This document shows, piece after piece, positions 11,085 to 51,591 of a stretch of DNA of 64,000 bases (position 1 is the first letter of the stretch; every line of letters starts with the position of its first letter). This DNA comes from Clostridia bacterium (lineage in GTDB: Bacteria; Bacillota; Clostridia; UBA1381). The stretch covers positions 1-64,000 of the forward strand of contig JAFQJD010000007.1 of NCBI GenBank assembly GCA_017415105.1, written 5' to 3'. The notes beneath the pieces are model-generated. The model made no database searches and was not told where the DNA came from. It saw only the letters and a program-made list of their open reading frames with translations. Position numbers and translations under genes: made by a program.

Positions 11085-11205
11085 CATTTGGCGATGAAGA
11101 GCGAGTCTGTGCGATTGCGTGCCGTAAACCGTGTCAGGTGGGGAACCAAGCAGCACTAAGCGGATTTCGTGATGTGTTACGGGTCACTCGCTCGGAGCCA
11201 TTTAA
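11085..11205 (+). ncRNA. ffs: Signal recognition particle RNA (small bacterial type)
   Basis: The conserved SRP core is visible as GTGTCAGGTGGGGAACCAAG (11131-11150), followed by CAGCACTAAG. This corresponds to the Ffh-binding helix 8 with its GGAA-type tetraloop and asymmetric loop. The outer ends pair: TGGC (11089-11092) with GCCA (11197-11200), and GCGAGT (11101-11106) with ACTCGC (11185-11190). Placement just before dnaX-ybaB-recR matches many Firmicutes, including Bacillus subtilis. The exact ends are approximate. Confidence 0.92.
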
Positions 11206-31065: not shown

Positions 31066-32811
31066 ATGAAAACAAAACAACATAAGATTTCAAATCTGAA
31101 ATTCTTTTCAAAATACTATAAGCCCTACATATGGATAATAATATTCGACCTTATATGTGCGTGTTTAACTACTGTGTGTGAGCTTGTACTGCCGATGCTT
31201 GTGCGACATATAACAACGGCTGTGGGCGAGGGGACATTGCTTCTCCAGACGGTACTCAGGATAGGCTTCTTATACCTTTTCTTGAAGATTGTTGACACTC
31301 TTGCAAATTACTATATGGCAAACACAGGTCACGTTATGGGTGCAAAAATCGAAACGGATATGCGTAACGATTTGTTTTCGCACCTGATGAAGCTGTCGTT
31401 TAACTATTTTGACAACACAAAGGTCGGACAGATAATGTCACGAATATCAAACGACTTATTTGATATAACCGAGTTTGCACATCACGGCCCGGAAGAAATT
31501 TTTATGTGCACCATAAAAATTGTGGGTGCGTTTATAATATTGAGCGGTATAAATGTTCCGCTTACACTTATCATATTTGCACTTCTGCCGCTTATGATGC
31601 TATCAACCATATTCTTCCGCAAAGGGATGAAGGATGCATTTAAAAAACAACGTGAGCAGATAGGTGAGCTTAATGCACAGGTTGAAGACAGCCTTTTGGG
31701 TGTGCGTGTAGTTAAGAGCTTTGCAAATGAGGAAAAAGAGAAAGAGCGTTTTCGTGACGGCAACAAAAAGTTCTTTGAGAGAAAGAAAACGTCATATAAA
31801 TATATGGCACGCTTTCAGGCTTGTACAAGGTTCTTTGACGGTGTTATGTACGTAGCAGTGGTTGTTGCCGGCTCAATATTTATGATAAACGGACATATCA
31901 ATGCCCCTGACCTTGTTGCATATATTCTCTATATTCAGACGCTTATGGCGGCAATAAGACAGCTTGTGGCATTTACCGAACAGTTCCAGCGAGGCATCAC
32001 GGGCATTGAGCGTTTTACGGAGATAATGAACGAAGTACCTGATATAACGGACTTGCCCGAGGCAAAGGATATTGAGGAAATCGAGGGAAATATTGAGTTT
32101 AAAAACATCAGCTTTTCATATTCTGACAGTGCCGAGGTTTTGTCGGATATCGACATCAAGGTAAACAAGGGTGAGAACATCGCAATCGTTGGTCCTTCGG
32201 GAAGCGGTAAGACAACACTTTGCAATCTCTTGCCGAGATTTTACGAGCTTACCGACGGTGATATAACAATCGACGGAATATCTGTAAAGGATATTACACT
32301 AAAATCCTTGCGTGACCATATCGGCGTTGTTCAGCAGGATGTGTATCTGTTCAGCGGAACAGTACGTGAGAATATAACCTACGGCTGTCCTGACGCAACG
32401 GACGAGGCAATAATTGAGGCGGCAAAGAATGCCGGTGCACACGAGTTTATAATGTCACTGCCTGACGGATATGATACATATGTCGGCGAACGTGGCTTAA
32501 AGCTTTCGGGCGGACAGAAGCAGAGAGTGTCAATAGCACGTCTGTTCCTCAAAAATCCACCGATACTGATACTTGACGAGGCAACATCAGCACTCGATAA
32601 CGAGAGCGAGCTTATAGTTCAGAAATCGCTTGAACGCCTTGCGAAAAACCGTACAACATTCACTATTGCACACAGACTTACCACTATCCGTAATGCCACA
32701 AAGATAATCGTTCTTACCGAGGACGGAATTTCCGAAATGGGTACGCACGAGGAGCTTATGGCACAAAACGGTGAGTATGCAAGACTTTACGGATTATATA
32801 CTTCGATATAA
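31066..32811 (+). CDS. ABC transporter, fused permease and ATPase
   Basis: A 581-residue half-transporter of the exporter type. Residues ~1-310 form the six-helix membrane domain, and ~340-581 the nucleotide-binding domain with Walker A GPSGSGKTTL, the Q-loop VVQQDVYLFSG, signature LSGGQKQRVSIARLFL, Walker B ILILDEATSALD and the H-loop AHRLTTI. It should act as a homodimer exporting a lipid, drug or peptide; the substrate cannot be read from the sequence. It has its own promoter and a strong hairpin right after the stop. Confidence 0.93.
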   Translation: MKTKQHKISNLKFFSKYYKPYIWIIIFDLICACLTTVCELVLPMLVRHITTAVGEGTLLLQTVLRIGFLYLFLKIVDTLANYYMANTGHVMGAKIETDMRNDLFSHLMKLSFNYFDNTKVGQIMSRISNDLFDITEFAHHGPEEIFMCTIKIVGAFIILSGINVPLTLIIFALLPLMMLSTIFFRKGMKDAFKKQREQIGELNAQVEDSLLGVRVVKSFANEEKEKERFRDGNKKFFERKKTSYKYMARFQACTRFFDGVMYVAVVVAGSIFMINGHINAPDLVAYILYIQTLMAAIRQLVAFTEQFQRGITGIERFTEIMNEVPDITDLPEAKDIEEIEGNIEFKNISFSYSDSAEVLSDIDIKVNKGENIAIVGPSGSGKTTLCNLLPRFYELTDGDITIDGISVKDITLKSLRDHIGVVQQDVYLFSGTVRENITYGCPDATDEAIIEAAKNAGAHEFIMSLPDGYDTYVGERGLKLSGGQKQRVSIARLFLKNPPILILDEATSALDNESELIVQKSLERLAKNRTTFTIAHRLTTIRNATKIIVLTEDGISEMGTHEELMAQNGEYARLYGLYTSI

Positions 32812-32851
32812 ATGACACAAGCCTGACCGTTTCGGTCAGGCTTGTGTCATT
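32811..32851. terminator. Long hairpin after the ABC exporter gene
   Basis: A perfect 19-bp stem (32811-32829 with 32833-32851) centred on CCTGACCG TTT CGGTCAGG. There is no T run after it on either strand, so it may stop transcription poorly or protect the 3' end. Confidence 0.65.
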
Positions 32852-32895: not shown

Positions 32896-33064
32896 AAAAA
32901 AGGTGTGTAGCAAGAGCTACACACCGAAAAAATGCATAACTCTTGGGTTTGTTACCACACAAAATCCAATATTTACACCGAGTATGCAAATAGAGCATGC
33001 ATTTTTTGCCGTAAAGCAAAAAAAACACCCGGTATAAACAAGAATATTGATTTTGTGTGGTGAC
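32896..33064 (-). ncRNA. Candidate structured small RNA, unknown family
   Basis: A non-coding unit on the minus strand with its own promoter and terminator. From the 5' end: an outer stem of about 20 bp (33064-33043 with 32972-32951, one bulge); a second stem (33036-33027 with 32983-32974); an inner hairpin-rich tip; a single-stranded stretch; and a terminator hairpin GGTGTGTAGC/GCTACACACC (32925-32902) followed by six T residues (32901-32896). Two alternative pairings exist: 32997-33007 with 32927-32937 (11 bp), and 32940-32945 with the terminator loop at 32911-32916. I do not recognise it. A 6S-like regulator is one possibility. Confidence 0.65.
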
Positions 33065-33067
33065 TAT

Positions 33068-33096
33068 AATATATCATATTTTACTTAAAATGTCAA
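33068..33096 (-). promoter_or_regulatory. Promoter of the candidate small RNA
   Basis: Minus strand: TTGACA (33091-33096), 17-nt spacer, TATATT (33068-33073). The predicted start near 33061-33064 coincides with the first paired bases of the RNA. Confidence 0.75.
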
Positions 33097-33105
33097 TATA
33101 TAGCG

Positions 33106-33134
33106 TTGACAAATTTTAAATTAAATGGTATAAT
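33106..33134 (+). promoter_or_regulatory. Promoter of the monooxygenase-like gene
   Basis: TTGACA (33106-33111), 17-nt spacer, TATAAT (33129-33134). It lies back to back with the small-RNA promoter; the two -35 boxes are 9 nt apart. Confidence 0.85.
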
Positions 33135-33169: not shown

Positions 33170-33466
33170 ATGATAACGATTGTAGCTGATTTTGATGTTA
33201 AGCCTGATTGCGTGGACGAGTTTATAAAGCTTGCACGTGAGTGTACAATGAACACCAAAAAAGAGGCAGGCTGTCTTTCATACAAGGTGTTTGAAGGCTA
33301 TGATGATAAAGCAAAATTCACATTTATAGAGGAATGGGCAAATGAGATTGCCATTGAAAAGCATAACGCAATGCCGCATTTTAAAAAGTTTATTGATGCA
33401 ATCGGACCGGTTTTAAACTGTCCGCCGTCAATAAAGAAAATATCACGTGTAACGGTAATACGATAA
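33170..33466 (+). CDS. Antibiotic biosynthesis monooxygenase (ABM/YgiN-like) protein
   Basis: A 98-residue dimeric alpha-beta barrel protein of the ABM family. It shows the usual VADFDVKPDCVDEFIKLARE start, a GCLSYKVFEG strand, FIEEWANEIAIEKHNAMPHFKKF and a closing strand. Family members act as quinol or heme-related monooxygenases or simply bind small molecules; the specific role is unknown. GGAAGGGA precedes the start. Single-gene unit. Confidence 0.88.
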   Translation: MITIVADFDVKPDCVDEFIKLARECTMNTKKEAGCLSYKVFEGYDDKAKFTFIEEWANEIAIEKHNAMPHFKKFIDAIGPVLNCPPSIKKISRVTVIR

Positions 33467-51514: not shown

Positions 51515-51591
51515 TGGTAGCGGTAACTAGATTCGAACTAGTGACACTGCGGGTATGAACCGCATGCTCTAGCCAACTGAGCTATACCGCC
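51515..51591 (-). tRNA. tRNA-Met (anticodon CAT), elongator
   Basis: A 77-nt tRNA on the minus strand. Acceptor GGCGGTA pairs with TACCGCT (G1-U72 wobble), the D-arm is GCTC/GAGC, the anticodon stem TGCGG/CCGCA with loop TTCATAC gives CAT, and the T-arm ACTAG/CTAGT has loop TTCGAAT. The CCA end is encoded. The paired acceptor end and lack of three G-C pairs in the anticodon stem argue against the initiator. It resembles Bacillus elongator tRNA-Met, although a CAT-reading tRNA-Ile2 cannot be fully excluded. Confidence 0.95.

Follow-up and report, generated by a model that had tools for sequence, protein, structure and literature searches.

A stand-alone copy of an uncatalogued structured RNA family of Clostridia with the features of a transcription attenuator

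Transcription-terminating riboswitches, such as the c-di-GMP-I/II, preQ1 and Na+ classes, lie in 5′ leaders with a start codon just downstream, contain conserved single-stranded stretches and share one strand between terminator and antiterminator. Second-messenger riboswitch classes are present in many copies per genome. T-box RNAs and ribosome-mediated attenuators also choose between a terminator and an antiterminator in leaders of Clostridia, and 6S RNA (RF00013) is a stand-alone, rod-like RNA of 160–200 nt. EutX/Rli55 is a riboswitch-controlled small RNA and a sponge for EutV; it stands alone, has its own promoter and a riboswitch-like terminator decision, and lies apart from, or opposite, the genes that it serves (PMC5821096).

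These features recur in the RNA family described here. Unlike the transcription-terminating riboswitches, however, the family has no match to an Rfam class, bears its own promoter directly before each copy, and in about half of its members has no gene directly downstream. Neither ANTAR hairpins nor a cobalamin aptamer were identified in it, in contrast to EutX/Rli55, and its orphan copies resemble the leaders themselves. It differs from 6S RNA by having a terminator/antiterminator pair, copies in leader positions and many copies per genome, and from T-box and ribosome-mediated attenuators in having no Rfam T-box match and no conserved upstream ORF. The RNA analyzed here is a stand-alone copy of a structured Clostridia RNA family that probably functions as a three-way transcription attenuator, the leader copies acting in cis and the orphans possibly in trans.

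The locus lies on the minus strand of the window, which is the whole 64,000-nt stretch analyzed from a Clostridia bacterium (contig JAFQJD010000007.1), between two genes that we read from their translations as those of an ABC transporter and an antibiotic-monooxygenase-like protein (Table 1). The ABC transporter gene converges on the RNA and ends 84 nt past its terminator; standing alone, the window copy is an orphan and does not occupy a leader position before a gene. An earlier note on this DNA had proposed an unrecognised, rod-like small RNA with its own promoter, a terminator with six U residues, competing folds and no ORF. The promoter is present with 11 of 12 consensus matches in a consensus scan (33096–33068), and the predicted RNA start, at about 33061, is the first base of P1. 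The terminator is as proposed, no ORF of at least 50 aa occurs within the RNA, and the predicted fold is far more stable than those of shuffled sequences (−63.9 kcal/mol vs −31.0 ± 3.9; z −8.5; 0 of 200 shuffles as good). A cmsearch with the covariance model R1 (see below), which includes the window sequence itself, gives 143.5 bits at 32896–33065.

Table 1. Features of the RNA locus and its predicted structural elements (window positions)
Feature	Position	Strand	Sequence, pairing or energy	Basis
RNA locus		−	between ABC transporter gene (31066–32811, +) and antibiotic-monooxygenase-like gene (33170–33466, +)	genes read from translations
−35 element	33091–33096	−	TTGACA	consensus scan
−10 element	33068–33073	−	TATATT; 17-nt spacer from −35	consensus scan
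Predicted transcript, stand-alone family copy	32896–33061	−	about 165 nt	cmsearch, fold z, orthologue
P1 5′ strand	33049–33061	−	ACCACACAAAAUC; pairs with 32966–32954	fold
P1 3′ strand	32954–32966	−	GAUUUUGUGUGGU	fold and family covariation
P2 5′ strand (consensus P2)	33025–33033	−	ACCGGGUGU; pairs with 32985–32977	
P2 3′ strand region	32977–32987	−	GCAUACUCGGU	fold and family covariation
P3 hairpin	33002–33024	−	UUUUUUUGC-UUUAC-GGCAAAAAA; −6.3 kcal/mol	
Long-range helix 5′ strand	32993–33007	−	AAAAAAUGCAUGCUC; partner 32942–32927; −13.9 kcal/mol (isolated duplex)	nearly invariant in family
Linker	32927–32942	−	GAGUUAUGCAUUUUUU; long-range helix 3′ strand, alternatively part of antiterminator	
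Antiterminator hairpin	32912–32944	−	14 bp, 32944–32931 with 32925–32912; −13.7 kcal/mol	nascent fold
Intrinsic terminator	32896–32925	−	10-bp stem 32925–32902, loop of 4, U-run 32901–32896; stem −17.4 kcal/mol	

Several further features surround the locus. The divergent monooxygenase gene has its own perfect promoter (TTGACA-17-TATAAT, 33106–33134, plus strand), and the −35 boxes of the two transcription units stand back-to-back, 9 bp apart (33091–33111), so that the RNA and monooxygenase transcripts may compete. Directly downstream of the RNA terminator, after the ABC transporter stop codon, lies a perfect hairpin (GACACAAGCCTGACC-GTTTC-GGTCAGGCTTGTGTC, 32814–32850) with no T-run on either strand. 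Elsewhere in the window, Rfam matches were obtained for the bacterial small SRP RNA (11098–11197, plus strand) and a tRNA (51518–51591, minus strand).

Two competing pairings had been pointed out in the earlier note. The 11-bp match is exact (AAAAAAUGCAU, 33007–32997, with AUGCAUUUUUU, 32937–32927) and extends to a long-range helix of 15 pairs with one bulge, in which the complementary partner of the linker is the AUGCAUGCUC strand; the A-run of P3 is common to P3 and this helix. The six-base match of 32945–32940 with the terminator loop was correctly seen but understated, being part of the 14-bp antiterminator hairpin, which in the predicted nascent fold forms in the linker before the 3′ arm of the terminator is made. 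The energies of P3, the long-range duplex, the antiterminator and the terminator (Table 1) suggest that both folding decisions are balanced enough for switching. The long-range helix with P1 retained is a predicted pseudoknot, and is counted against the attenuator reading.

A DNA search over 61 genomes, this genome included, gave matches in 26, some of the weakest of which cover the promoter only. On an alignment of 20 copies (A1), RNAalifold chose the long-range match as consensus, unprompted. Within the order, R1, a covariance model built from A1 whose E-values are rough, has matches in 76 of 95 genomes, which cover 25 of 27 genera; within the class it has matches in 96 of 391, most related genomes being MAGs, whereas none of 298 other genomes sampled from the phylum bears the family. 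Full scoring gives 8 copies for this genome and, for G049, G069, G089, G143, G323 and G153, 26, 21, 12, 21, 27 and 15, respectively. Among named genomes, the core motif is carried almost solely by Clostridia, Oscillospiraceae and Monoglobus MAGs, mostly from herbivore guts. A clear copy is also borne by a contig labelled Bacteroides sp. (L124), which is probably a binning error. Two exact patterns of the core motif are absent from viral contigs, and a viral origin of the RNA was set aside. Head-to-tail neighbours number 18 among 190 copies, at a spacing of 45–303 nt; one contig with three tandem copies also bears a match to the Type II hammerhead ribozyme (L101:833–906, minus strand; 55.6 bits).

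The RNA, described earlier as unrecognised, has no counterpart in Rfam either. Among 4227 models, none matches the window RNA at its gathering score (best sub-threshold score 25.6 bits, cut-off 90), and scans of related copies gave no match over a copy in 20 loci at gathering thresholds or in 16 loci at E 0.01; a known Rfam family was ruled out because none of these scans matched over a copy. A search limited to open-access literature found no description of the family, which is absent from Rfam 15 and previously uncatalogued. The 6S-like identity suggested in the earlier note did not hold. The rod-like shape interrupted by an internal loop, together with a size of about 165 nt, would suit a 6S-like regulator of RNA polymerase, but this genome has a separate, true 6S gene (G000:C15:9593–9791; 51.7 bits vs a gathering score of 46.4), as found in 21 of 26 genomes searched, neither the window copy nor its related loci match RF00013, and 8–27 copies per genome and leader positions are unlike 6S, making this idea very unlikely.

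Covariation of P1, P2, P3 and the terminator was counted in an alignment of 107 distinct copies (A4). These helices are paired in 92.6% of cells, with double changes in 39 of 42 pairs: 15/15 in P1, 10/10 in P2, 5/7 in P3 (93% paired) and 9/10 in the terminator helix (98.1% paired). The covariance-model check proposed in the earlier note has thus yielded homologues in which all four helices covary strongly. The covariation score of A4 is 0.495, vs 0.190 in shuffles, which leave the relatedness of the copies in place, and at most 0.082 in slid structures, a control that flatters the result because A4 was fitted to this structure. The long-range helix and the antiterminator are cleaner tests as both lie outside the model. 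The former (the A-run of P3 plus UGCAUGCUC, paired with GAGCnAUGCAUUUUU) is 96.3% paired in the family and has 7 double-changed pairs vs 3.3 in shuffles (0 of 500 shuffles). The antiterminator duplex scores 17.1 with the copy's own terminator 5′ arm vs 13.6 with permuted partners (z 12), and linker and terminator co-vary both in leaders (z 11) and in convergent orphans (z 8.1). The idea that orphans have a weakened antiterminator was rejected, as the drop is slight (median 16.5 vs 18, p 0.025) and the coupling is retained. Both competing pairings seen at the window locus are therefore conserved in the family, which also has a near-invariant AAAAAUGCAUGCUCUAUUUU strand. On comparative evidence, terminator and antiterminator are mutually exclusive and tied to the aptamer fold, as in riboswitches.

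A sigma-70-like promoter (at least 9 of 12 matches) precedes 87% of 189 copies, vs 11% in shuffles, and the distance from the end of the −10 element to the model start is 2 or 3 nt in 159 of 165 promoter-bearing copies, suggesting that transcription begins at P1. Homologues, covariation and this promoter placement over some 190 copies put the observation at the window locus beyond chance. For placement counts, ORFs and start codons were called mechanically. Leaders, defined by an end no more than 40 nt upstream of a start codon, make up 91 of 190 copies; this riboswitch-like 5′ position directly before a gene, which the window copy does not have, suggests that about half of the copies are cis-leaders. 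The gap from terminator to start codon has a sharp peak at 16–19 nt (49 copies), with 18 more copies at 20–23 nt. The remaining copies face a convergent gene (40), have a same-strand gene 40–250 nt away (32) or have none near (22). The earlier statement that the RNA is standalone and not a simple riboswitch is thus right for the window copy in its first part, whereas the family consists of leaders by about half and, as a whole and with the orphan copies included, looks like a riboswitch-type transcription attenuator. A translated upstream ORF beginning ATG CAT GCT CTA TTT was also considered and rejected, since a Shine-Dalgarno sequence precedes AAAAATG in none of the 149 copies that have it and the stop distance is variable.

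The proteins encoded behind leaders (n = 70) include 15 with BspA-type leucine-rich repeats, three copper-amine-oxidase N-terminal domains, three dockerins, and SLH, RCC1, CHAP and M23 once each; short lipoproteins or small proteins make up many of the rest. Small cysteine-rich proteins of about 72–84 aa that share a GKDC-GNGE-CCCDEC-CC pattern are encoded repeatedly behind leader copies of different genomes (L146:206–454, L184:739–966, L188:1839–2054, L202:699–950). A conserved protein of 78–79 aa (MNIKVELLKNYISDFI...) lies 16–17 nt behind the RNA in several genomes (L032:1683–1916, L131:1748–1981, L155:1752–1988, L166:1748–1984, and L094).

An alternative is a family that is primarily a trans-acting small RNA: the terminated RNA would be the product of every copy, and gene-proximal copies would be small-RNA genes whose terminators leak or whose promoters have been co-opted. 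Roughly half of the copies lack a gene directly downstream, convergent copies keep both the promoter (87.5%) and the covarying antiterminator, head-to-tail neighbours occur, and the syntenic orphan described below is maintained with compensatory changes, all of which would fit such a role. However, the sharp 16–24-nt gap peak with a Shine-Dalgarno sequence and the conserved antiterminator suit a cis attenuator and not a plain small RNA, and this alternative is judged improbable. Conversely, it is not obvious what an antiterminator would do in an orphan that lacks a downstream gene, and the attenuator reading suits the leaders better than the window copy.

The family, its pairings, promoter, terminator and leader spacing are computational observations, from which the following attenuation mechanism is proposed. 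Each copy would start at its own promoter, and P1, P2 and P3 would fold first. In one outcome, the linker behind P1 would invade P3 and pair with the conserved AAAAAUGCAUGCUC strand, allowing the terminator to form and transcription to stop after about 165 nt; the pairing of linker and upstream strand would thereby be an anti-antiterminator. In the other, the free linker would pair with the 5′ arm of the terminator as an antiterminator, and RNA polymerase would read on. In the leaders, which are about half of the copies, read-through would soon reach the Shine-Dalgarno sequence and start codon of a gene (peak 16–24 nt), and these copies would be on/off leaders in cis, to all appearances for secreted and small proteins. 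A ligand or protein bound to the conserved UCUAUUU strand and the P1/P2 internal loop may decide between P3 and the long-range helix. Orphans would release the terminated RNA in trans, most simply as a decoy titrating the same effector, by analogy with EutX/Rli55.

Regarding the effector, a further difference from the transcription-terminating riboswitches is that no GGDEF protein was found in this genome, or in the carriers G022, G050, G054, G055 and G057, all of these genomes being incomplete; c-di-GMP or cGAMP is therefore unlikely as ligand. In a variant of the attenuator mechanism, which we consider rather doubtful, one of the folds is stabilised by an RNA-binding protein instead of a metabolite, with the orphans as its sponges. 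The abundance of orphans in one genome, and of unlinked targets with mixed functions, fits the titration of a limited factor, and the near-invariant strand could be a protein site; against this, no candidate protein was identified, and ANTAR target hairpins were compared through the Rfam scan only. A broader reading, put forward tentatively, is that of a new global riboswitch class for a cellular signal in gut Clostridia, whose targets, surface proteins and small proteins, are scattered over the genome and tuned in trans by orphans, as decoys or by pairing with leaders via the palindromic AUGCAU.

The narrow distribution of the RNA at the window locus counts against the attenuator reading. Twelve genomes of the genus have the monooxygenase gene; the RNA lies beside it only in this genome and in G015, its nearest relative in the comparison, and is absent there from the 10 others. 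The neighbouring protein is 94% identical to that of G015 (48–67% in the other genus genomes) and the promoter region is 93% identical to that of the G015 orthologue (L036, L050), whereas the RNA itself is 65% identical to its syntenic orthologue over 154 aligned positions, with 11 double compensatory changes, two single conservative changes and three broken pairs. The compensatory changes suggest that the structure of the stand-alone copy is retained despite rapid change in its sequence; an identity of about 65–72% in the RNA body (L036/L050) would reflect either an unexpectedly rapid evolution under constraint or the substitution of a different copy. Six other copies in this genome share 66–71% identity with the window copy; three of them are orphans that lie between convergent genes, two are leaders and the sixth lies 87 nt before a gene bearing an export signal. 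An eighth, weak copy (37 bits) lies 16 nt before a small XRE-like gene. A MITE-like mobile repeat with P1 as its terminal inverted repeat would account for many copies per genome, tandem neighbours and diverse surroundings, but the low identity of same-genome copies to the window copy, the covariation of P1 in place of a fixed terminal repeat, the constant distance of the promoter outside P1 and the orthologue at the same locus make a mobile repeat very unlikely.

With 8–27 copies per genome in many gut Clostridia lineages, the family would rank among the more abundant cis-regulatory RNAs there. It points to a signal governing adhesin-like BspA repeat proteins as well as lipoproteins and small proteins; its stand-alone copies let one ask whether attenuator RNAs also act in trans.
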